Assembly: GCA_945870425.1 (NCBI GenBank)
Contig: CAMBSD010000001.1
Location: forward strand, 186,001 to 250,000
Direction of reading: 5' to 3'
Origin: Chitinophaga pinensis
GTDB taxonomy: Bacteria > Bacteroidota > Bacteroidia > UKL13-3
Length of the DNA: 64,000 nucleotides
How positions within the stretch are numbered: position 1 is the first letter of the stretch; each line of letters opens with the position of its first letter. Below the pieces are notes generated by a model, which was not told the origin of the DNA, made no database searches, and saw only the letters and a list, made by a program, of their open reading frames with translations. The translations under genes and the position numbers were made by a program. Below are positions 24,139 to 43,049 of the stretch, piece after piece.

Positions 24139-26937
24139 CTAATTTTTTGTTTTAATAATTTTTACAACTTGCTTCAACCCATTAGAATCTTTCAAAACAA
24201 GACAATAAGTTGCATCCGGAAATTCATGGATATCTATATGCAACACTCCAAATTTAGGAGCTAGGTCTTGTAGAATAGTCCTGCCTGTAATATCTGTTAA
24301 ACTTACTTTTTCAATTGATTCAGGAATATTTTCAATAGTTAAATAGCCCAAATTTGGATTGGGAAAAATCTTAATTTCAGGTAAACTCCAAAGCTCTAGT
24401 TTCCCTGTTGCAGCAGATTGTGTTATTCTAATTAGCTTGAATAAAAATCCGTTCTCTACTCTTATCAATCCACTGCGTTCTATAGTAAGATTATTGGCAT
24501 CAATGTTTATTTGAAAACTATCAGCCATAGCAATAGAATCTTTATTAACCTGCATCCAAGATTGGTTTGATGTCACTTTCCACTTAGAATTAGTTTGGAA
24601 AGGAATATTCAATTTTTTATTATTTGAATTGATTAAAAACACCGTATCCGAATTGAAATAAGGCATTGGGGATTGTGTTATTCTAATGAGCTTGAATGAA
24701 AATTCGTTTTCTACTCTTATCAATCCACTGCGTTCTATCGCAAGATTATTGGCATCAATGTTTATTTGAAAACTATCAGCCATAGCAATTGAATCTTTAG
24801 TAACCTGCATCCAAGTTTGGTTTGATGATATTTTCCACTTAGAATTAGTTTGGAATGGAATATTCAATTTTTTATTATTTGAATTGATTAGGAACACCGT
24901 ATCCGAATTGAAATAAGGCATTGGGGCTTGTGTTATTCTAATGAGCTTGAATGAAAATTCGTTTTCTACTCTTATAAATCCACTGCGTTCTATAGCAAGA
25001 TTATTGGCATCAATGTTTATTTGAAAACTATCAGCCACAGCAATTGAATCTTTAGTAACCTGCATCCAGGTTTGGTTTGAAGATACCTTCCACTTATAAT
25101 TAGTTTGGAATGGAATATTCAATTTTTTATTGTTTGAATTGATTAAAAACACCGAATCTGAATTAAAATAGGGCAATTGAACACCTACCTGTTTGTATCC
25201 AGTATCACTTTGACAACCAAAATTATTTTTATGAACAAGCTTAATAATTGCATTTACAGCCAGATTAGGCCATTGTACTGCAACTGAATTTGAATCATTT
25301 CGACTTATAATATTGCCATTCCATGCAAACCAATTATGCTGTAAGCTTATTAAACTTGAAGTAAACACATCTTTGCCATTCACTATGCCTTCAGATTTAC
25401 CCAAAATTATAGGCAAATTTGGACGAGGATTAAAAGTTATAGCTGTATCTTCCATTGCATAAAGGCATGCATTAGGTGATTTAATTTGAAGTCCGTAATT
25501 TCCTGAATTAAATACTACAAGCTCCGAATTGGTATTGGTATCAGAACTCATTTTGTTTTGATTTTTATACCATAAGTAATTGAAATTTCCAGTAACGGGA
25601 GAAATCAGTTTGATTGTGTCACCACTGCAAATAGATTGCGGAGAAACGACACCCAACTTCAATGGATTAATTTGCGTACTTTCCAACAAATCAAAAATCT
25701 TCACCTCACTGGTATCACAACCGGTACTTCCTTTTACTTTATAAATGTAATACCTGCCAAAATGCGTTGCATTCAATTGGTTTATTTGAAGTGTATCTCC
25801 AATATAAACAAAAGAATTAGGTCCTCTCCAATACGTATTTGCGCCACTAAGCGCTAAGACATTTTTAGTAAATTTAATTCCTTTGCAAGAGTATGATATA
25901 CTATCACCAACCAAAACAGGCTTTGCAGGGGAATTCGCACATAGTTCAAATTTTACAAATTTAGGCAGAGACCATATACCAGTTGAATCTTTAACACGAA
26001 CAAAAATTGAATCTATTCCTGCACTTAAATTTAGGGTAGAGATAGAATGATGGTCACTTAAACTATCAACAGGAATTATTCTATTAAAAATCTGATTCCC
26101 ATTACCTACACCTGGATCAGAATCTTTGTAATATTCAGCAGCCACAATTCCTGAGGTAACTTTAGAAATGGGGTGATTCATGACTTGAAAATTTCTTCCT
26201 TCAAACAAACTCCATCTTCCAAGTGAATCTAAAAACCTAATGTATAAGGTGTGATTACCTTCAGAAAGTCCAAGGCTTGAAAGATTAAATGCAGATTGAA
26301 CAGAATCCAAATTGCCAATAAGTGAGTTTCTTTGATAGGAGCCTTGTCCTGTAACATCGTTGTCTATATAATATTCAAAGCTTTTTAAACGTGCCGTCTT
26401 TTCAGTTGGATAAGAATCTTCCTGTATAATAAAATTTCTACCTTCAAACAAGCTCCATTTACCTAATGAATCCTGAAATCTATAATAAATGGTATGCAAT
26501 CCTTTGTTCAATCCAACTGTAGAAAATGTGAAAGAGGATTCTACACTATCCGTAAAATTAGAAAAGGAAAATTTTGTATTGTTTCCTATCCCGTTTAAAT
26601 CTGCATCAAAATAATATTCAAATGATATTAGCGGTGCATTATTTAAAGCCGGGTAGTCTGCCTCTTGAATAGTAAACTGTCTGTTCTCTATGATACTCCA
26701 ATCACCCAAACTATTCCTTACCCTAATACTGATATGATGCAATCCTGAACTTAAACCAGTTGAAGGAATTGTAAAAGAAGGTGAAATTGAGTCACCATTC
26801 TGAGTTATCGGTATAGAAATACCCGAACCATTTTGGACCGGTGCATCTATATAATACTCGGCATAAGTAATTTGCTGAGCAGTGGCCACGAAACCAAATG
26901 TTAACATCAAAAGAAGTAACAGAAAACAATTCTTCAT
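24139..26937 (-). CDS. Secreted multi-repeat protein with three BACON-like domains and T9SS sorting domain
   Basis: The 932-residue precursor has a signal peptide. Four ~80-residue repeats follow (about 20-335), each with a YY-x-D start and a core like SLGxWSLFEGRNF, then Ig/PKD-like segments (about 335-590), then three nearly identical ~86-residue units. Each unit reads YFNSDTVFLINSNNKKLNIP, then SNQTWMQV and RSGLIRVEN, ending RITQ. The unit pattern (W near the middle, WMQV, RSGxIxV, terminal Q) fits BACON domains, often linked to carbohydrate or mucin binding in Bacteroidota. The C-terminus (IKIFPNPNLGYLTIEN) is a T9SS type A domain. It is co-transcribed with its neighbours (6-7 base gaps). 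A surface adhesin or glycan-binding role is inferred. Confidence 0.88.
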   Translation of the reverse strand: MKNCFLLLLLMLTFGFVATAQQITYAEYYIDAPVQNGSGISIPITQNGDSISPSFTIPSTGLSSGLHHISIRVRNSLGDWSIIENRQFTIQEADYPALNNAPLISFEYYFDADLNGIGNNTKFSFSNFTDSVESSFTFSTVGLNKGLHTIYYRFQDSLGKWSLFEGRNFIIQEDSYPTEKTARLKSFEYYIDNDVTGQGSYQRNSLIGNLDSVQSAFNLSSLGLSEGNHTLYIRFLDSLGRWSLFEGRNFQVMNHPISKVTSGIVAAEYYKDSDPGVGNGNQIFNRIIPVDSLSDHHSISTLNLSAGIDSIFVRVKDSTGIWSLPKFVKFELCANSPAKPVLVGDSISYSCKGIKFTKNVLALSGANTYWRGPNSFVYIGDTLQINQLNATHFGRYYIYKVKGSTGCDTSEVKIFDLLESTQINPLKLGVVSPQSICSGDTIKLISPVTGNFNYLWYKNQNKMSSDTNTNSELVVFNSGNYGLQIKSPNACLYAMEDTAITFNPRPNLPIILGKSEGIVNGKDVFTSSLISLQHNWFAWNGNIISRNDSNSVAVQWPNLAVNAIIKLVHKNNFGCQSDTGYKQVGVQLPYFNSDSVFLINSNNKKLNIPFQTNYKWKVSSNQTWMQVTKDSIAVADSFQINIDANNLAIERSGFIRVENEFSFKLIRITQAPMPYFNSDTVFLINSNNKKLNIPFQTNSKWKISSNQTWMQVTKDSIAMADSFQINIDANNLAIERSGLIRVENEFSFKLIRITQSPMPYFNSDTVFLINSNNKKLNIPFQTNSKWKVTSNQSWMQVNKDSIAMADSFQINIDANNLTIERSGLIRVENGFLFKLIRITQSAATGKLELWSLPEIKIFPNPNLGYLTIENIPESIEKVSLTDITGRTILQDLAPKFGVLHIDIHEFPDATYCLVLKDSNGLKQVVKIIKTKN
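24420..25180. repeat. Three tandem ~258-bp coding repeats (BACON units)
   Basis: The DNA encoding the three BACON-like units of the 932-residue protein repeats with a period of about 258 bases. Long stretches are identical, for example the blocks around 24600-24660, 24850-24910 and 25110-25160, which encode the strand NSNNKKLNIPFQTN. Nucleotide identity is clearly higher than coding constraint alone would need, pointing to recent duplication or ongoing conversion between units. Confidence 0.85.
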
Positions 26938-32230: not shown

Positions 32231-33457
32231 TTATGATTTTTTGCCAATTACTTTTGCTATTCTATTCATAGAATCATTACTTACATGGCATTTCTTCGCA
32301 TATACTTTCCAATTATAAACAACAGCTTGCACTTGATCAATTATATTACTGGCATTTTTTATGTTGAAATAATTGGCTAATTCCAATAGGTGTTCTTTTG
32401 TTGGTTTGGCACTCTCACCGCTTACCATCGTGCTGTGCATGCCATGTCCTGAACTTGAAAATGTTAAGTCGTATGCTGGAGCAACTTTCCAATTTCCATT
32501 TTCATCCATTAAAAAGGAAATGTTTTTACTGTGGTCATCTCTATTGTGTGCAAAAACATTAAATGCCGCTAAACGCAATATTTTTTCATACGCACGAACA
32601 TCACGTTCAAGTCTGAAAGCACAATCCATGATATTTCCATAGTCTAAATTGCTTAATCTGAAATCATCATGCATCATACCAGCAGCTGAATGCATGTGCA
32701 AACGATTATTACCTATTCTATCAAAACGTTTTGTGCCAAAATATACTTGACCAGATTTACCTTTAAAAAGTTTACTCTCACTCATTTCAATTCCCGCGTC
32801 TAGTGCCATTTGATAATAAGCATATTCAATATTTGAAATATCTGGCCTATCAGCAGATGAAGGAAATTTAATAAGCCAATGCTCATAATCAGGTGGCAAC
32901 TCTTTTTTAGAGACCATTATTTGTTCTGTTTTAGGGTTGTAGCCCACTAATATTTTGGGTCGAGCTCCACCTGAAGATCCACCTAATATATACAATTCAT
33001 CAAGAATTTCTGTAGCTGTTCCAGTAAGAATTTGATGTGCCGCTATGGCTATATCATCTAGTTCAAACTTAAATAGCTTATCTATTTTATAGGCTGATTC
33101 AGGTTTGTAAATTAATGCACCCACACCATTACTTCCCACAAAAGCCAATCGGTCAAGCATGGTTATATTACTCATATCAATTCCTTTTGCTGTTAATGCC
33201 CTATCTAATAATAATCTTCCCCAACCATCTGGCAAAGAATCAGCAAATACGCCAAATAATCCATCAAATGGAAAGGCATCTGCGCTATTTATTTCCTTAT
33301 TGAGTTTTAATTTCAGTGGAGATATTTCAATTCCTTGACTGATAAAATCACTATAATATTTAAAATATATATCCCGCTTATCAATTACCAATTCACCTAC
33401 CTCAATTTCAATTTTGTTGAATGTAATTGATACAATTAATTTTTTAATGGATTCCAT
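32231..33457 (-). CDS. hipA: HipA-family serine/threonine kinase toxin
   Basis: The 408-residue protein has the HipA N-subdomain 1 (DGLFGVFADSLPDGWGRLLLDR), a glycine-rich loop (GGSSGGARPK, about 159-168), the catalytic loop HNRDDHSKN (304-312, catalytic D308) and the metal-binding DLT (D330). In characterised systems HipA phosphorylates aminoacyl-tRNA synthetases and induces dormancy. The two domains that are split into HipS and HipT in some relatives are here in one chain, so it is the full-length type. The antitoxin gene lies two bases upstream, in the order hipB then hipA. The kinase motifs are intact, so the toxin should be active. Confidence 0.94.
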   Translation of the reverse strand: MESIKKLIVSITFNKIEIEVGELVIDKRDIYFKYYSDFISQGIEISPLKLKLNKEINSADAFPFDGLFGVFADSLPDGWGRLLLDRALTAKGIDMSNITMLDRLAFVGSNGVGALIYKPESAYKIDKLFKFELDDIAIAAHQILTGTATEILDELYILGGSSGGARPKILVGYNPKTEQIMVSKKELPPDYEHWLIKFPSSADRPDISNIEYAYYQMALDAGIEMSESKLFKGKSGQVYFGTKRFDRIGNNRLHMHSAAGMMHDDFRLSNLDYGNIMDCAFRLERDVRAYEKILRLAAFNVFAHNRDDHSKNISFLMDENGNWKVAPAYDLTFSSSGHGMHSTMVSGESAKPTKEHLLELANYFNIKNASNIIDQVQAVVYNWKVYAKKCHVSNDSMNRIAKVIGKKS

Positions 33458-33459
33458 TT

Positions 33460-33750
33460 TTAAATTTTGGTCCTTTCGCTAAACAACTTATCAATATCCT
33501 TTAATGTATTATTTGGGTTTAATATCAAATCAAAATCATGGATGCGATTTAGTATTTGAGATAACTTTACCAAAGATTCTAAGGCAATTTGCCCTGTAAG
33601 TTCAAATCGTTTAATGCTTCCTAAAGATACACCAGAACGTTTGGCCAATTCACTTTGAGTTAATCCTGCCTGCTTTCGCAGCACTTTGTGTTTTTGTGCC
33701 AATTCCTTTATCATTTCAATAGGAATTTTTTCTGTACCGAACTTTGTCAT
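33460..33750 (-). CDS. hipB: HipB-type antitoxin (XRE family)
   Basis: The small protein has an XRE helix-turn-helix (LRKQAGLTQSELAKRSGVSLGSIKRFE) and a short C-terminal tail. I use the ATG at 33750 (MTKFGTEK) rather than an upstream TTG at 33759, because the TTG would sit inside a candidate operator. It is expected to bind HipA, block its kinase activity and repress its own promoter. The stop lies two bases before the hipA ATG, giving tight coupling. Confidence 0.9.
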   Translation of the reverse strand: MTKFGTEKIPIEMIKELAQKHKVLRKQAGLTQSELAKRSGVSLGSIKRFELTGQIALESLVKLSQILNRIHDFDLILNPNNTLKDIDKLFSERTKI

Positions 33751-33816
33751 ATTAGCCAATATATGATACGAAAATATGGTATTATAGCTAAAATAGCTAA
33801 TATTTTGGCTATTTAA
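33749..33816. promoter_or_regulatory. Candidate hipBA operator/promoter
   Basis: Several inverted copies of a TAGCTA/TTGGCTA half-site lie just upstream of hipB: ATATT-AGCC-AATAT at 33750-33763, then TATAGCTA, AATAGCTA and TTTTGGCTAT between 33783 and 33812. Clusters of repeated half-sites beside the antitoxin start are typical of HipB operators. The match is to a repeated pattern only, since the binding site of this HipB is unknown. Confidence 0.5.
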
Positions 33817-35876: not shown

Positions 35877-35909
35877 GGCCTCATAGTTCAAATGATAGAA
35901 TAGATGTTA
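35877..35909 (+). pseudogene. Truncated tRNA-Arg(CCT) 5' half
   Basis: The sequence GGCCTCATAGTTCAAATGATA then GAATAGATGTTA matches the 5' half (acceptor strand, D arm, anticodon stem) of the tRNA at 36664-36735 with a few changes, and then diverges in the anticodon loop. The 60-70 bases upstream also align with those upstream of the real tRNA (for example AAGTATTTGAAAGAAACTAGG versus AAGTATTTGAAAAGAAGTAAGG), so this is one end of the same duplication. Confidence 0.85.
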
Positions 35910-36067: not shown

Positions 36068-36424
36068 ATGCATATCGGCTTACACATTAAATTAGCTAGA
36101 ATTGTTAAAGGATTTAAACAACAGGATCTAGCTGAAAGGATAAATAAAACACGCCCGCTCATATCCTGTATTGAACAAACGGGCAAAGTAAACCACAATA
36201 CTTTAAAGAAAATATGTGGGGTATTGGAAATTGATATCAATGAATTAGAATCTTCGGTGGACGCTGAAAACCAAAAAGAAATGGGTTATCATCGTAAAAA
36301 CTTAAGCAATCTTAATTCAAGGTTAAAGGAAATGGAAGAAGAAAATAAAAACTTAAGGTCACTTCTTTCGGCACAAGCAGAATTAATAAAAAACCAAAAA
36401 GATTTCATCAAAAGAATAAAGTAA
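36068..36424 (+). CDS. XRE-family regulator with C-terminal coiled coil
   Basis: An XRE helix-turn-helix fills residues 1-60 (KGFKQQDLAERINKTRPLISCIEQTGK), followed by a heptad-rich helix (LSNLNSRLKEMEEENKNLRSLLS) and a basic tail. I chose the ATG at 36068 (MHIGLHIKLARIV) because the homology with the decayed copy at 35443 and the usual start of such proteins begins at HIG. An upstream ATG at 36026 would add 14 residues. It is probably a dimeric DNA-binding repressor. Its neighbour downstream is tRNA-Arg, 239 bases away, and that gap contains only duplicated AT-rich sequence. Confidence 0.82.
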   Translation: MHIGLHIKLARIVKGFKQQDLAERINKTRPLISCIEQTGKVNHNTLKKICGVLEIDINELESSVDAENQKEMGYHRKNLSNLNSRLKEMEEENKNLRSLLSAQAELIKNQKDFIKRIK

Positions 36425-36663
36425 TATGGCCTAAGTTCCAATTTTATGGCTAATCACTTTAACCAAACATTATCATTGTAACTTTATCTCATTTGACCAT
36501 AAGTATTTATTTGCAAATTAGGTTGTAGCTGCAAGGTATATTTTTTGCATTCTTGGGTGCAAATTGATTACTTTTGGCGGCTATTACATGCAAAAATGCA
36601 AGTATTTGAAAAGAAGTAAGGATTACTAAAATTGATATTCCACTCATTTTCAATATGCTGTAT

Positions 36664-36735
36664 GGTCTCGTAGTTCAATGGATAGAATAGATGTTTCCTA
36701 AACATTTGATACAGGTTCGATTCCTGTCGAGACTA
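36664..36735 (+). tRNA. tRNA-Arg (anticodon CCT)
   Basis: The 72-base sequence folds as a complete cloverleaf: acceptor GGTCTCG/CGAGACT (with a G-U end pair), D stem GTTC/GAAT, anticodon stem GATGT/ACATT around loop TTCCTAA (anticodon CCT, reading AGG), T stem ACAGG/CCTGT with loop TTCGATT, discriminator A. CCA is not encoded, as is usual in this phylum. A GIY-YIG gene starts 20 bases downstream, and the tRNA 3' end is repeated after that gene at 37045-37070. Confidence 0.95.
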
Positions 36736-36754
36736 CTATTATTAATTAGAGTAC

Positions 36755-37003
36755 ATGTATTTTGTTTACATACTTTATTCTAAAGCTTTTGACAAATACT
36801 ATGTAGGTCATACTAGTTCTTTAGAGCGAAGAATTAAAGAACATAATCAAGGGTGTAATAAGTCAACTAAACCTTACATTCCTTGGGAATTATTGGGTTC
36901 AGTTACCAAAAATGAAAAAGCTGATGCCTATCAACTTGAGCTAAAACTTAAGAATCTTTCCAAAGTCAGAAAATTAGATTTCATAAAAAAATATTGTAAA
37001 TAA
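36755..37003 (+). CDS. GIY-YIG nuclease-family small protein
   Basis: This 82-residue protein is essentially one GIY-YIG domain: VYILYSKAFDKYYVGHT contains the two signature strands, LERRIKEHN the conserved arginine helix, and AYQLELKLKNL the position of the catalytic glutamate. Small solo proteins of this type are often annotated as UvrC-like but lack every other UvrC domain. It lies 20 bases after tRNA-Arg and is followed 41 bases later by a second copy of the tRNA 3' end. It is therefore placed like cargo inserted at, or duplicated with, a tRNA gene. It may be transcribed by read-through from the tRNA. Its substrate is unknown. Confidence 0.88.
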   Translation: MYFVYILYSKAFDKYYVGHTSSLERRIKEHNQGCNKSTKPYIPWELLGSVTKNEKADAYQLELKLKNLSKVRKLDFIKKYCK

Positions 37004-37044
37004 CTTTCATGAGTTGGTGTTTTCGCTGACGTGGCAAAGCCAGT

Positions 37045-37070
37045 CAGGATTCGATTCCTGTCGAGACTAC
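37045..37070 (+). repeat. Copy of the tRNA-Arg 3' end (attachment-site-like direct repeat)
   Basis: CAGGATTCGATTCCTGTCGA followed by GACTAC repeats 36712-36736 (the 3' strand of the T arm and acceptor), with one inserted A. The last 21 bases are identical. The two copies bracket the GIY-YIG gene as 334-base-spaced direct repeats. This is the arrangement left by integration at a tRNA 3' end or by a tandem duplication with loss of the second tRNA 5' half. Confidence 0.9.
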
Positions 37071-37160
37071 AAATAAATTGCATGGTTGCCCTTCATTCAT
37101 GAGTCTTAAGGACTTTTTTGTTTTTAGATACTGAAATTTCATTGGTTCCTGACCATACTT

Positions 37161-37186
37161 AGATTTAGCAAAGCGCTCTATGGATT
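37161..37186. repeat. Dispersed repeat family D, copy 2
   Basis: AGATTTAGCAAAGCGCTCTA then TGGATT matches the core of the copies at 35597-35640 and 46304-46350. It lies directly before the family C palindrome at 37194. No gene is associated with it. Confidence 0.6.
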
Positions 37187-37193
37187 TGCCTGC

Positions 37194-37223
37194 GGTTGGT
37201 GTTATCACGTGATAACACCAACC
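37194..37223. repeat. Perfect 30-nt palindrome, family C
   Basis: GGTTGGTGTTATCAC at 37194-37208 is followed immediately by its exact complement at 37209-37223, leaving no unpaired loop. The GGTTGGTG/CACCAACC core recurs at 47394-47420, 47044-47051 (one arm) and in decayed form at 34183-34213. It lies between the tRNA/GIY-YIG unit and the DUF962 gene and is not followed by a T-run. Confidence 0.9.
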
Positions 37224-37342
37224 ATAGTCAAAATACAGGTTAAACTCATGTTGATGCTACCATCTTTATAATTCTTCAAAAGCAACTATTTCAGTAGGAT
37301 TAAAATTATGGATGTCATAATTTTATCCTTTAATTCGCAGTT

Positions 37343-37657
37343 ATGTCTGAACGCATCAAAACCCTCAAAGAATTTTATCCTTACTATTTATCAGAGCATA
37401 AAAATGGTACCAGTAGATTGCTGCATTTTATTGGCACTACCCTATTTTTTATTTTTTTGATGGGAGCTTTTCTGTTTCACAATATGTGGTTTATTGCTGC
37501 TTGCCCCTTAGCAGGATATGGCTTTGCATGGCTAGGGCACTTCTTTTTTGAGAAAAACAAACCCGCTACATTCAAATACCCTTTGTTTAGTTTGGCCTCT
37601 GATTTCATTCTATATTTTGAGATATTAAACGGAAAGGAAAAAATCTTTAACAATTAA
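37343..37657 (+). CDS. DUF962/Mpo1-like membrane protein
   Basis: The 104-residue protein matches the DUF962 pattern: LSEHKNGTSRLLHFIGTTLF, then GYGFAWLGHFFFEKNKPATFKYPLFSLASDF, with two hydrophobic helices. The conserved histidines (in EH, LHFIG and GHFF) are those proposed to bind iron in the yeast relative Mpo1, a dioxygenase acting on 2-hydroxy fatty acids. A comparable role in lipid or sphingolipid metabolism is possible but not shown. It stands alone, within the accessory region, yet looks like a normal chromosomal gene. Confidence 0.85.
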   Translation: MSERIKTLKEFYPYYLSEHKNGTSRLLHFIGTTLFFIFLMGAFLFHNMWFIAACPLAGYGFAWLGHFFFEKNKPATFKYPLFSLASDFILYFEILNGKEKIFNN

Positions 37658-38286: not shown

Positions 38287-39906
38287 TTGCCAACTTTACA
38301 CTGGATAGGGAAAGAAAAAATAGTAAATCATCATCAAGATGTACCCTTCCGTGTGCTTGAACATCAATATGGATTTACAGGAAATGGCAAACAAAAAGAA
38401 GAAACCAATAGCGGAAACCTAATTATTCATGGAGATAATTTAGAGGCAATAAAAGCCTTACTTCCAAAGTATGAAGGCAAGATTGATGTTATATGTATTG
38501 ATCCACCTTATAATACAGGTAATGAGAACTGGGTATATAATGACAATGTAAATCATCCGAAAATAAAAAAATGGCTTGGACAGGTTGTAGGTCGGGAAAG
38601 TGAAGACTTAAGCCGTCATGATAAGTGGCTTTGTATGATGTATCCTCGTTTGAAATTACTTCACAAGTTGCTTTCTGATGATGGAGCAATTTTTATATCA
38701 ATTGATGATAATGAACAAGCGAATTTAAAACTAACTTGTGATGAGATTTTTGGTTCAAAACAATTTATAGGTCAATGGAATTGGTATAAATCTGCTACTC
38801 CTCCAAATTTATCGCACAAAATAAAAAAAAATATAGAATATATATTATGCTATTCAAAAACAGCAAACAATAATAGATTTTATGGGATACAAAAAGTGAG
38901 TAAAAGTGATGACCCGCTTACAAAACCTCAAAACACATTCAAAGAATTGCTTTTCAAAAAAGGTACAATAAAAATAAATTTAGAAAATCAAACATTTCAA
39001 AAAGGTATTTATGGTACAGCCAAGTTTCCTAATGAGTTAATGGATGATTTAATTATTGAAAATGGTACAAATAAAAATAATGTTCGCTTTAAAAATAGAT
39101 TTATATGGGTTCAAGATAAACTAAATGAAGAAATAAGTAAAAAAACAATTATAAAAATAAGTAGCAAATCTCTTGTTCTTGCTTACAAAAAACAAGAATA
39201 TTCAAAAGAAGCTCCACCAAATTTGATTGATTTTTCAGTTGGTGTTGACACTACTGAAAATGCTGGTCGAATTTTGAATGAAATATTCAAAGAGAAAAAA
39301 TTTGATTTTCCGAAACCTCCTTCATTACTTGAATATATTATCAGTTTTTTAAGTAAAAACAATTCAACAATACTTGATTCCTTTTCAGGTTCAGGTACAA
39401 CAGCTCATGCAGTTCTAAATCTTAATAAAGAAGATGGAGGTAACCGTAAATTCATCTTAATTGAAATGGAAGATTATGCAGAAACAATTACAGCTGAAAG
39501 GGTAAAAAGAGTAATAAATGGATTTGGTGAAAAAGCAGGTACAGGTGGTAGTTTTGATTACTACGAACTTGGTAAACCACTTTTCAAAAAGAACGGCTAC
39601 TTAAATGAAGCTTTAGAGGAAAATGAAATACGTAATTATATCTACTATACTGAAACTAAACTTCCCATATCTAAAGTAAGGGACAGTAAAAACTGGTATT
39701 TATTAGATAACTTTAACGAAACAAGTTATTACTTCTATTACGAAAAAGATAAACTTACTACTCTTGATTTAGAGAGTTTGAGTATCGTAAAAATTAAAGC
39801 AGAACAATACATCATATATGCTGACAACTGCCTATTAGATAAAGAGTATCTGCAAAAATACAATATCATTTTCAAGAAAATTCCAAGAGATATTAAACGA
39901 TTTTAA
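38287..39906 (+). CDS. mod: Type III restriction-modification system DNA methyltransferase (Mod)
   Basis: This 539-residue N6-adenine methyltransferase of the beta class has the catalytic motif DPPYNTG (about residue 72) before the SAM-binding motif DSFSGSGTTAHA (about 370), with the target-recognition region between them. The N-terminus MPTLHWIGKEK, starting with TTG, is conserved in the family, which supports this unusual start. Mod gives sequence specificity to both modification and restriction and works with Res encoded three bases downstream. A run of nine A residues around 38823 lies in the coding frame. The locus is visibly more A-rich than the core genes around it. Confidence 0.94.
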   Translation: MPTLHWIGKEKIVNHHQDVPFRVLEHQYGFTGNGKQKEETNSGNLIIHGDNLEAIKALLPKYEGKIDVICIDPPYNTGNENWVYNDNVNHPKIKKWLGQVVGRESEDLSRHDKWLCMMYPRLKLLHKLLSDDGAIFISIDDNEQANLKLTCDEIFGSKQFIGQWNWYKSATPPNLSHKIKKNIEYILCYSKTANNNRFYGIQKVSKSDDPLTKPQNTFKELLFKKGTIKINLENQTFQKGIYGTAKFPNELMDDLIIENGTNKNNVRFKNRFIWVQDKLNEEISKKTIIKISSKSLVLAYKKQEYSKEAPPNLIDFSVGVDTTENAGRILNEIFKEKKFDFPKPPSLLEYIISFLSKNNSTILDSFSGSGTTAHAVLNLNKEDGGNRKFILIEMEDYAETITAERVKRVINGFGEKAGTGGSFDYYELGKPLFKKNGYLNEALEENEIRNYIYYTETKLPISKVRDSKNWYLLDNFNETSYYFYYEKDKLTTLDLESLSIVKIKAEQYIIYADNCLLDKEYLQKYNIIFKKIPRDIKRF

Positions 39907-39909
39907 GTA

Positions 39910-42555
39910 ATGGAATTAAAGCCATATCAACAAACTGTCATTAATGAATTAGCTGAATTTATAAACTGCTTAGAACAAACAGAACATATAAATACGGCCT
40001 ATGAGAAATACTGGAATAGCAAAGGAGTATCACTTTATAACTTAGATGGAAATAACTTTATAAAGCCTTATGATAATTCTATTAAAGGCGTACCTAGGGT
40101 AACTGTTAAAGTCCCTACAGCAGGAGGTAAAACCTTTATAGCTTGCAATGCTTTAAAAACAATATTTGATAGTTTTCCAATAGATAAAGCTAAAGTAGTA
40201 GTATGGCTAGTACCCTCAGATACTATATTACAACAAACAGTTAGAAATTTGAGTGATACATCACATCCATATCGCTCAAAAATAGATAGCCATTTTGGGA
40301 GTGCCGTAAAGGTTTATGAGAAAGAGTCGCTATTGCAAGGTGCAAGTTTCGGTCCCACTGAAATTAAAGAACAACTTAGCATATTAGTATTAAGTGTATC
40401 GTCATTTTCGGCAAATAATAAAGATACACGAAAAGCCTTTCAAGAAAATGGAAATTTGCAACAATTTCCTCAAACATTTCTCCAGCCAGAAAAGCTTCTA
40501 CCTAATGTTGACGAAACAGCATTAATGCAAGTCATCAATCAGCTAAATCCAGTTGTAATTGTAGATGAAAGCCACAATGTAGAAAGTGGTTTGCGAATAG
40601 AAATGCTAAACAATATTAACCCGTCTTTTGTATTTGATTTAACTGCAACTCCTAGAGACAAAAGTAATATCATAAGTTTTGTTGATGCCATTCATCTTAA
40701 AAAATGCAATATGGTAAAGTTGCCAGTTATTGTTTACAATCATCAAGATACAAATGAAGTAATAAGTGGTGCGATTAACTTACAAAAAACATTAGAGTCA
40801 AAAGCGATTATTGAAGAGAAAAATGGAGGAAAATATATTAGACCTATTGTACTTTTTCAAGCACAGCCCAAGAACAATGACGACAACATTACTTTCGAGA
40901 AAATTAAAGAATACTTGACTGCTTCGGGAATACCAGAAGAGCAAGTTAAAATCAAAACTTCTGGTAAGGATGAAATATCAAAAGAAGACTTGATGAGTAG
41001 GGATTGTAAAGTGCGATATATTATTACAGTAAATGCTTTAAAAGAAGGCTGGGACTGCCCGTTTGCTTATATATTGGCTTCACTTGCAAATAAATCATCT
41101 GCGGTTGATGTGGAACAAATTTTAGGTCGTATTTTAAGACAACCTTATGTTATAAAACATCAACAGGATTTGTTGAATTTCTCTTATGTACTTACATCAT
41201 CAAATAATTTCATTGCTACACTTGACAAGATAATAGAAGGTCTAAATAAATCAGGATTTAGCGAAAAGGATTATCGTACCAAGGATTCTATGATTGAAGA
41301 AGAGACTAATGTACAAACACCAAAATCCGAATCTTTTGAGGACTTATTTAGTCAGAAAAAAACAGCAGAAATAAATACTGAAACAAAAGAAATTATTGAA
41401 CAAATAAATCCAAAATTGGTAAAAGAAATATCCGTTTCAGATAAGGCTCACAATCAATTAAACGAAATAATCAATCTTGCTAAACAGACTAATGAAAATT
41501 TTGAAAAAACCATAGCAAAATTAAATCAAGAAGATATTATACCAAATGAGTTGGCTAATACAATGAAATCATACCAAATAAAAGAAATATTTAAAGATGA
41601 AGTGAAAGACTTGTCAATACCTGCTTTTTTTATAAAAGTAAATCAAGGGTCAATCTTTAATGATGAGGGGTCTTTACAATTATTGAGTAAAAATCTATTG
41701 TTAAAAGACTTTGCACTCAGTCAACAAGATACAGTTATTGATTTTACTCAAACATCATCAGAGATGTATAGCATCGATTTGGCAGAAACCAAGAAAGATG
41801 AATTTGTACCTGAATACAAAAAGGAAAATAATATTGTTAAAGAAGCATTTGTGAAATACATTTCAGCACTTCAGCCAGAAGCTAAAATAAATCAACTTGC
41901 TTCAAGAATATTGAAGCTAATTAAAAAAGTGGATGCCATTCCAGAACCAGAATTGACTAAATATATAACTCATGTTCTTCATAATCTTGATAGTGATAAG
42001 CTTACAGAACTATCGCATAATGAAATGTTTTATGCCATCAAAATAAAAAAGAAAATAGAGCAATTATCAGATATATATGCTGAAAAAAGATTCAGCAATT
42101 TGCTTGACAAAGGAGTTATTATTTGTCAATCGCACTTTAAGTTTCCTAAGAAAATAAGCCCCATAAATACAATAAAAGGAATTACCAAAAACCTATATGA
42201 ACAAGAGGGTGAAATGAATGACTTTGAGAAAAAAGTAATTAATGAAATTGCCAATTTGGATAGCGTTGTATTTTGGCACAGGAATTTGGAAAGAGGTAAG
42301 GGATTTTTATTAAACGGTTTCATCAATCATTATCCTGATTTTATTATTAAAACCAAAAACGGCAAAATAGTATTACTAGAAACTAAAGGAGAACACTTAG
42401 ACGGCACTGAAAGCCAAAAGAAAATAAGGTTAGGGGAAAAATGGGCAAGCAAAGCAGGCGATCAGTTTAGATATTTTATGGTTTTCAATGCTGCAAAATT
42501 AGATGGAGCAAAATCTGTTTCTGAGTTGATAGATATTTTGAATGAAATGAAATAA
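39910..42555 (+). CDS. res: Type III restriction enzyme Res subunit (helicase-nuclease)
   Basis: This 881-residue protein has a superfamily 2 ATPase core: Walker A in PTAGGKT (near residue 73), DESH Walker B, the TAT motif, and a motif VI-like QILGRILRQP. At the C-terminus a PD-(D/E)xK-type nuclease is visible as NHYPDFIIKTKNGKIVLLETKG. With Mod it forms the type III complex that translocates or slides between two inversely oriented sites and cuts. Mod and Res are intact, so restriction should be active. The gene starts three bases after the mod stop and is the last of the operon. Confidence 0.94.
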   Translation: MELKPYQQTVINELAEFINCLEQTEHINTAYEKYWNSKGVSLYNLDGNNFIKPYDNSIKGVPRVTVKVPTAGGKTFIACNALKTIFDSFPIDKAKVVVWLVPSDTILQQTVRNLSDTSHPYRSKIDSHFGSAVKVYEKESLLQGASFGPTEIKEQLSILVLSVSSFSANNKDTRKAFQENGNLQQFPQTFLQPEKLLPNVDETALMQVINQLNPVVIVDESHNVESGLRIEMLNNINPSFVFDLTATPRDKSNIISFVDAIHLKKCNMVKLPVIVYNHQDTNEVISGAINLQKTLESKAIIEEKNGGKYIRPIVLFQAQPKNNDDNITFEKIKEYLTASGIPEEQVKIKTSGKDEISKEDLMSRDCKVRYIITVNALKEGWDCPFAYILASLANKSSAVDVEQILGRILRQPYVIKHQQDLLNFSYVLTSSNNFIATLDKIIEGLNKSGFSEKDYRTKDSMIEEETNVQTPKSESFEDLFSQKKTAEINTETKEIIEQINPKLVKEISVSDKAHNQLNEIINLAKQTNENFEKTIAKLNQEDIIPNELANTMKSYQIKEIFKDEVKDLSIPAFFIKVNQGSIFNDEGSLQLLSKNLLLKDFALSQQDTVIDFTQTSSEMYSIDLAETKKDEFVPEYKKENNIVKEAFVKYISALQPEAKINQLASRILKLIKKVDAIPEPELTKYITHVLHNLDSDKLTELSHNEMFYAIKIKKKIEQLSDIYAEKRFSNLLDKGVIICQSHFKFPKKISPINTIKGITKNLYEQEGEMNDFEKKVINEIANLDSVVFWHRNLERGKGFLLNGFINHYPDFIIKTKNGKIVLLETKGEHLDGTESQKKIRLGEKWASKAGDQFRYFMVFNAAKLDGAKSVSELIDILNEMK

Positions 42556-42632
42556 TACTCTACACAGCTATTTAATTTAAACGTCTACATGGCAAACAAA
42601 AATGTATCAAATGATTTTGTGCTACCCAAATG

Positions 42633-42665
42633 ATATTCCCCTCCTTGGAGGGGTTAGGGGTGGGT
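42633..42665. repeat. 33-bp repeat framing DUF559 gene, right side
   Basis: ATATTCCCCTCCTTGGAGGG followed by GTTAGGGGTGGGT abuts the DUF559 stop codon at 42666. It is the exact reverse complement of 43181-43213, so the two form perfect inverted repeats around the gene. The inner part CCCCTCCTTGGAGGGG is itself palindromic. Confidence 0.95.
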
Positions 42666-43049
42666 CTAGAAAGTTCTATTATCAATTTTATTTTCAATCC
42701 AAGATTCAATCTCAAAAAGCACATTCAAAATATCATATTTAATCTGCTTATCAGAAAACCTTAAGAATTCCACTCCGTATTGTTCTATTTCAGTTTGTCT
42801 TATCACATCCGCTTTATAGGCCTCTTCATGATTATGACTATCCCCATCTATTTCAATTACCAGTCTTAATTCCTTACAGTAAAAATCAACGATATAATTG
42901 AGAATAGGCTTTTGTCTATCAAAATCGTAGCCTAGCATTTTCTTTTGATGAAGGTATTTCCATAATATCACTTCACTGAGTGTGGCATTTTGACGCAATC
43001 GTTTTGCAATAATTTTTAAATTTGAGTTATATGGAATAATTTTTCTCAT
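42666..43049 (-). CDS. DUF559 (Vsr-like) endonuclease-fold protein
   Basis: This 127-residue protein has the DUF559 signature: LRQNATLSEVILWKYL, GYDFDRQKPILNYIVDFYC and VIEIDGDSH, the last carrying the acidic residues of a PD-(D/E)xK or Vsr-type nuclease site. It is complete and stands alone. It is framed by inverted 33-bp repeats at 42633-42665 and 43181-43213, with a variant copy at 43066-43106 only 16 bases upstream of the start. This suggests a single-gene mobile or self-duplicating cassette. DUF559 proteins have no settled function. It is not part of the type III operon upstream. Confidence 0.88.
   Translation of the reverse strand: MRKIIPYNSNLKIIAKRLRQNATLSEVILWKYLHQKKMLGYDFDRQKPILNYIVDFYCKELRLVIEIDGDSHNHEEAYKADVIRQTEIEQYGVEFLRFSDKQIKYDILNVLFEIESWIENKIDNRTF

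Follow-up and report, generated by a model that had tools for sequence, protein, structure and literature searches.

The closest counterpart of the cassette discussed here is SegB, a free-standing GIY-YIG homing endonuclease of the T-even phages (T4/T6) that is found beside tRNA genes (PMC13096335). SegB breaks DNA inside tRNA genes, and it drives the tandem amplification of a unit composed of the tRNA and segB (PMC13096335). On the opposite strand, its motif RAWTSGAAC becomes GTTCSAWTY, which corresponds to a tRNA T loop (PMC13096335). In both systems, a GIY-YIG gene adjoins tRNA genes. They differ in that SegB belongs to phages while our cassette is chromosomal, and in that the cassette comprises a hairpin-bearing pseudo-tRNA unit, which is unreported for SegB. 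The cassette protein is moreover a solo protein of 80-100 amino acids, without an added DNA-binding region and without any match among the PHROG families. By analogy, the best reading is that the cassette would work like the SegB of phages T4/T6.

Several other systems share some of its features. By sequence and by fold, the cassette protein is closest to the UPF0213 and Slx1 (URI-type) nucleases. Slx1 has an additional zinc-binding domain and is a structure-specific nuclease with a housekeeping role in repair, and we know of no UPF0213 or Slx1 nuclease that is tied to tRNA genes. The GIY-YIG elements of fungal mitochondria (e.g. in Allomyces atp6) supply a replacement 3' end to the gene they invade. 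As in the cassette, a nuclease gene comes with a duplicated 3' end of a target that stays functional, but their targets are protein-coding genes of organelles, and neither tRNA nor hairpin is involved. The integrative elements of tRNA 3' ends also produce a direct repeat of that end and restore the tRNA; the cassette, in contrast, is only ~330 bp long and has no integrase among the neighbours tested. Finally, REP/RAYT systems also associate a nuclease gene with flanking short palindromes that are dispersed elsewhere. RAYTs are HUH enzymes, whereas the cassette encodes a GIY-YIG enzyme: no HUH tyrosine transposase was detected, the only family matches of the protein being GIY-YIG or GIY-YIG-like, and the palindromes near cassette loci lie within tRNA copies. 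No prior description of a tRNA-anchored GIY-YIG cassette was found in the open-access PMC papers searched.

The cassette at tRNA-Arg(CCT)

The window, that is, the whole stretch of 64,000 nucleotides that was analysed, carries a cassette of ~330 bases in all, which contains one small nuclease gene and a damaged copy of the end of the adjoining tRNA (Table 1). The first-pass annotation had reported a tRNA-Arg(CCT), an 82-residue GIY-YIG gene and a recurrence of the last 21 bases of the tRNA, all of which are confirmed. The gap between the tRNA and the gene measures 18 bases rather than the 20 it gave. As for the 41 bases that it counted after the gene, the exact repeat begins 46 bases past the stop, and the figure of 41 holds if one counts from a CAGG (37045) that is parted from TTCG by one extra A in the distal copy. 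The repeat, TTCGATTCCTGTCGAGACTAC, runs from the T loop to the tRNA 3' end and is exact in both places, so that the cassette is flanked by a 21-bp direct repeat of the tRNA 3' end in the manner of integrase-type tRNA elements. The view of the distal copy as a displaced tRNA 3' end was right as regards this repeat but incomplete, as the copy is a pseudo-tRNA with a hairpin, found in conserved form across the phylum, in units that are often arrayed in tandem; here, the copy carries an anticodon-arm remnant, GGTGTTTTC, at 37016-37024. A chance repeat was ruled out by the E value of 4e-8 for its occurrence within 3 kb and by its recurrence in other genomes. A group I intron was also rejected, as the tRNA is uninterrupted and no intron family appears among the Rfam matches in 36400-37400.

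Table 1. Features of the cassette locus in the window
Feature	Position	Strand	Basis
5'-half pseudo-tRNA-Arg fragment; belonging to the cassette uncertain	35877..35908	+	
Functional tRNA-Arg(CCT), host gene anchoring the cassette	36664..36736	+	ARAGORN; Rfam RF00005 66.9 bits
GTTCGATTC in the tRNA T loop, reverse complement of the SegB cleavage motif RAWTSGAAC	36715..36723	+	motif from PMC13096335
Proximal copy of the 21-base repeat, within the functional tRNA	36716..36736	+	
Cassette core of 313 bp, sharing 94.6% identity with its counterpart at the tRNA-Arg(CCT) of G040 (other genus)	36737..37049	+	sequence comparison
Solo GIY-YIG nuclease gene, 82 aa; Y5, Y16, G18, R26, H30 and E62 conserved	36755..37003	+	ORF, PF01541
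Distal pseudo-tRNA-Arg: anticodon 5' arm remnant, hairpin, T arm, acceptor 3' strand	37016..37070	+	same architecture in relatives
Hairpin CTGACGTGGCAAAGCCAGTCAG, 22 bases, standing where the tRNA has its anticodon 3' strand and variable loop; also conserved in G040	37026..37047	+	
Distal exact 21-base copy, tRNA T loop to 3' end; host-specific in G000 and G040	37050..37070	+	

The encoded protein matches PF01541 with 58 bits. The six residues listed in Table 1 are invariant across 19 proteins, and they include the catalytic Tyr, Tyr, Arg, His/Tyr and Glu of the GIY-YIG superfamily. The best structural matches of its AlphaFold model (pLDDT 93.5) are UPF0213 and Slx1, and its nearest relatives by sequence are again UPF0213 and Slx1 proteins (1zg2 with an E value of 3e-14, 1ywl and Slx1): it belongs to the UPF0213/URI-Slx1 branch of the GIY-YIG nucleases. 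It consists of the GIY-YIG domain and one C-terminal helix, and lacks the separate sequence-specific DNA-binding region expected of a SegB-like homing endonuclease. This counts against a homing reading, which would have to account for sequence specificity in a bare catalytic domain devoid of the added DNA-binding region of the I-TevI type. Between the cassette genes of the genome holding the window (G000) and of a relative from another genus (G040), the dN/dS ratio is 0.16-0.18, which shows that the gene is under purifying selection.

The first-pass annotation had also seen a nuclease with no integrase, and this was borne out by the absence of any linked site-specific recombinase among the ten neighbouring ORFs tested, from 32.2 to 43.0 kb. 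This bears on the possibility, which we consider unlikely, that the cassette is passive and that the tRNA 3' end serves as attB for the tyrosine integrases of other elements, which would move the GIY-YIG/pseudo-tRNA unit. tRNA genes are typical attB sites, and a 21-base repeat going from the T loop to the 3' end does fit a classical att site in size and place. However, besides the lack of an integrase among these ten ORFs, the active-site residues are conserved, the repeats found elsewhere span the anticodon arm through the terminator, unlike an att core, and the protein clades track tRNA identity (see below), which is needless for a passenger.

The surroundings of the cassette have features of their own. 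Just past it, at 37185-37232, lies an inverted repeat made of two 24-base arms without spacer, 88% complementary and centred on GGTTGGTGTTATCACGTGATAACACCAACC. Genes for HipA and its helix-turn-helix partner, for a DNA methylase that adjoins a type III restriction subunit and for a DUF559 protein are located at 32231-33759 and 38287-43049, and a Mpo1-like gene is among the ten neighbours tested. The upstream 5'-half fragment is identical at 30/32 positions to the other-genus tRNA, versus 28/32 for the local tRNA. Comparable 5'-half copies are found upstream of tRNA-Arg(CCT) in several genomes, and in some of these copies palindromes occupy the D or anticodon arm. Elsewhere in the window, at 24455-24834, long exact repeats are spaced by 255 bases.

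Recurrence beside tRNA genes and the conserved hairpin

The same genome contains twelve GIY-YIG matches. Besides the one in the window, solo GIY-YIG genes are located 3' of tRNA-Ala(GGC) and of three tRNA-Met(CAT), on the same strand, and one of these tRNA-Met loci holds three GIY-YIG frames in tandem. Two of the three contain internal stops, and a partial tRNA copy comes after every frame. At a tRNA-Asn (L025), the tRNA 3' end recurs as an exact copy of 18 bases, 112 bases further down and with no accompanying GIY-YIG match, which is possibly a cassette remnant.

We then consider the 53 genomes of the family, which are mostly draft assemblies and provide 121 rows of solo GIY-YIG genes, a few of them from a second, incomplete genome of the window's genus. 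In 39 of these rows, the gene is at most 150 bp downstream of a tRNA gene and always on its strand; by our own estimate, chance adjacency to a tRNA would be ~0.001 per gene. A further 7 rows are within 1 kb of a tRNA, mostly in tRNA-headed arrays, and 7 are at contig ends. The host tRNAs correspond to nine amino acids: Ala, Arg (three anticodons), Asn, Asp, Leu, Met, Pro, Ser and Val. Most of the tRNA-adjacent genes are then followed by a partial, hairpin-bearing copy of their own tRNA, and 29/35 downstream regions exceed, in their match to that tRNA, the 95% point of mismatched pairings. As T arms resemble one another, this null is strict. Each unit is a solo GIY-YIG gene followed by a hairpin-bearing copy of the 3' half of the host tRNA, on the same strand, next to an intact tRNA. 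When repeated in tandem arrays, the units have periods of 350-410 bp.

The tRNA link is a property of part of the protein tree. In a tree of 120 proteins, there is no such link in the 59-row sister clade. On the tree of the 39 rows, tRNA identity changes 18 times, versus 29.2 times when shuffled (0/200 shuffles were as low), and host switches have put each of Asn, Ala, Pro and Arg at more than one point of the tree: the protein tree partly tracks tRNA identity. REP-like repeats, whose core is GAGCGxAGTCGA, flank another clade of solo GIY-YIG genes with no tRNA link (L003, L047, L049, L055, L061, L072, L080 and L085); they reach 0.75/kb within 400 bp of these genes versus 0.08/kb further off. 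GIY-YIG genes may here be linked to short repeats in a second way.

The recurrence extends to the phylum. A scan seeded with one protein clade gave at least 492 relatives, of which we analysed the best 80 named loci, including representatives of Flavobacterium, Pedobacter, Mucilaginibacter, Cyclobacterium, Chitinophaga, Marivirga and Balneolaceae. Among these best 80, 51 are within 150 bp after a tRNA (49 tRNA-Met(CAT), one Val and one unresolved call), and others are farther along tRNA-Met-headed arrays or at contig ends. In the genome of Marivirga arenosa, which also has a tRNA-Met array, two GIY-YIG frames of 90 aa that resemble each other (L306 and L313) follow tRNA-Val(TAC) at distances of ~180 and ~680 bases. 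The layout of the best 80 loci is nearly constant and consists of the tRNA, a terminator-like hairpin, the ORF and then GGGCTCATA / TCCG(palindrome)CGGA / CGCAGGTTCGAGTCC...CCGCTAC, where the palindrome substitutes for the anticodon 3' strand and the variable loop of the tRNA copy. It is found at most 160 bp 3' of the ORF in 62 of these 80 loci, a density 25-fold that found elsewhere; the remaining palindromes near those loci mostly sit in extra pseudo-tRNA copies upstream of the tRNA. The hairpin is conserved: its six stem pairs hold in 154/156 cells (26 distinct 16-base versions), with changes on both sides at two pairs. Using the hairpin signature only, a pattern search in 392 genomes gave 31 matches in 18 genomes versus 1 control match; a GIY-YIG gene adjoins the hairpin in 12 of the 18, and hairpin-bearing pseudo-tRNAs are also found without one.

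We rejected the possibility that randomly dispersed palindromes happened to land in dead tRNAs, as the hairpin of the Met loci is mostly at one fixed tRNA position and nearly all other palindromes near these loci sit in pseudo-tRNA copies upstream of the tRNA. A palindrome, CCCGATAGCTATCGGG, is indeed dispersed in several genomes, among them G052, G009, G025 and G045 with 26-52 copies each and no control matches; it has zero copies in the window's genome and is missing from many relatives.

Such a hairpin could also act at the RNA level, in which case the GIY-YIG protein would target the tRNA itself and the co-transcribed pseudo-tRNA would be a decoy or an antitoxin-like RNA. Its compensatory changes, its placement from the anticodon to the variable loop, where several tRNA nucleases cut, and the presence of the gene, the pseudo-tRNA and the tRNA on one strand would all fit. 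We nevertheless hold this very unlikely: the nearest folds are UPF0213 and Slx1, the latter being DNA nucleases, the distal copies are devoid of the tRNA 5' half, the stability of the distal RNA of the window is not unusual (z -0.9), and in many cassettes a terminator-like hairpin separates the tRNA from the ORF.

Transfer between genera and occupied and empty sites

The cassette cores of G000 and G040 are identical at 94.6% over 313 bp of DNA between unrelated flanks, the G040 cassette beginning 8 bases into its contig, whereas the background identity of the two genomes is 77% for uvrA, 72% for the Mpo1-like gene and 88% for the tRNA. The tRNA of G040 is itself identical to that of its congener G034, which has no cassette. 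In both genomes, the distal 21 bases follow the host tRNA (with one mismatch in G040), and the similarity ends just beyond the T loop; the terminator after the G040 distal copy resembles that of another cassette-free congener, G033. Judged from these sequences, the cassette has evidently passed between genera once, in the sole clear cross-genus case found, and the divergence of uvrA compared to the core gives this single case the horizontal spread at a conserved target that characterizes homing endonucleases. The tRNA-Arg(CCT) locus was not found in the 70% complete genome of G001, from the same genus as the window. No carrier was found: phage and plasmid searches, which used different family members as queries, gave one weak phage match (37%), one weak plasmid match and no IMG/VR relatives.

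Homing endonuclease genes are also expected to be present or absent at a fixed site with conserved flanks, and this was found at two loci. Within one genus, the tRNA-Asp cassette is present in G019 and G020 and missing from G017, G018 and G021, and the 5' flank is conserved. Among the loci examined in Flavobacterium (41 genomes searched), five have the cassette, two are decayed or cut off and most are empty; two keep the pseudo-tRNA without the GIY-YIG gene. The occupied G078 and the empty G067 are identical at 98% on the left, through the tRNA and terminator, and at 89% on the right, where the match resumes inside the tRNA. The net gain in G078 is ~349 bp, with a ~89-bp duplication of the tRNA 3' half and terminator, which could alternatively have originated from unequal crossing-over.

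One may extend this last point to the whole unit and see in it a scar of local duplication, in which a resident GIY-YIG gene was caught by unequal crossing-over at a tRNA 3' end. tRNA 3' ends are prone to such events, as exemplified by the distal repeats of E. coli tyrT, and both the tandem arrays with their 350-410 bp periods and the pseudo-tRNA copies lacking GIY-YIG would be accounted for. This explanation is quite unlikely and already weakened by the cross-genus transfer with unrelated flanks, the patchy occupancy, the same type of gene at tRNAs for nine amino acids and the identical position of the hairpin across the phylum. The first-pass annotation had rather proposed a mobile unit that enters at a tRNA 3' end and leaves the tRNA restored, for which the repeats, the tRNA anchoring and the empty sites all speak: GIY-YIG frames directly after tRNA genes do recur with 3'-end repeats, their homologues stay at tRNA genes, and empty sites exist in relatives, at the Asp locus, in Flavobacterium and at the cassette-free tRNA of G034. 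This part of the proposal withstands the refutation that had been set out with it, whereas the cutting of tRNA genes by the GIY-YIG protein, which it also put forward, is a putative activity.

Proposed mobility and its significance

We observe the recurrence of the cassette, its same-strand anchoring to tRNA genes, its occupied and empty sites and its tandem growth. As it recurs beside many tRNA genes and has moved between genera, it resembles a very small mobile element. The locus of the window is probably a homing-like minimal mobile cassette (a 313-bp core and a 21-bp tRNA repeat) at tRNA-Arg(CCT), one of a large Bacteroidota family. In such a mechanism, a putative carrier would bring the cassette, and the nuclease would make a break in a cassette-free copy, either in its tRNA gene or in its tRNA/pseudo-tRNA region. 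Incoming cassette DNA would then serve for the repair, with the tRNA and pseudo-tRNA as homology arms, and the cassette would be installed while the tRNA is kept whole and its 3' part duplicated. The hairpin and altered T loop probably shield the distal copy from cutting or from tRNA function, and the intact tRNA of cassette-bearing genomes would have to escape cutting. The functional tRNA has GTTCGATTC in its T loop, and this is broken to ATTCGATTC in the distal copy; since the SegB motif is not enriched across the window as a whole, this match is only suggestive.

A less likely possibility, drawn from the analogy with Slx1, is a mobility guided by structure, where the enzyme would cut a cruciform formed by the hairpin of its own pseudo-tRNA and the broken cassette end would invade tRNA genes. 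It would agree with a solo catalytic domain of the Slx1 type, with perfect palindromes at a fixed site and with the tandem multiplication of palindrome-bearing pseudo-tRNAs, but it does not by itself account for the tracking of tRNA identity by the protein clades beyond what homology would give.

Returning to the homing-like cassette, we give about an even chance to a broader reading, in which these units form an undescribed, phylum-wide class of autonomous mobile elements of ~300-400 bp in Bacteroidota chromosomes. Each would combine a catalytic-domain-only GIY-YIG protein with a hairpin-marked half-tRNA, and homing would be directed to different tRNA genes in different protein lineages. The units would leave the tRNA functional, multiply in tandem and pass from genus to genus, and they would rank with the smallest known mobile elements that encode a protein.

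Bacteroidota commonly carry solo GIY-YIG genes, which are annotated without a role, and a large fraction of these genes can now be given a definite location, a structure as units and an activity that lends itself to testing. If our reading is true, bacterial chromosomes harbour a homing system that parasitises essential and highly conserved tRNA genes, in which a conserved nucleic-acid hairpin would be a possible device for self-protection or end recognition, and which would raise the question of how a nuclease without a DNA-binding region locates its site. Arrays of these cassettes may also help to account for the assembly breaks and the tRNA pseudogenes of Bacteroidota genomes.
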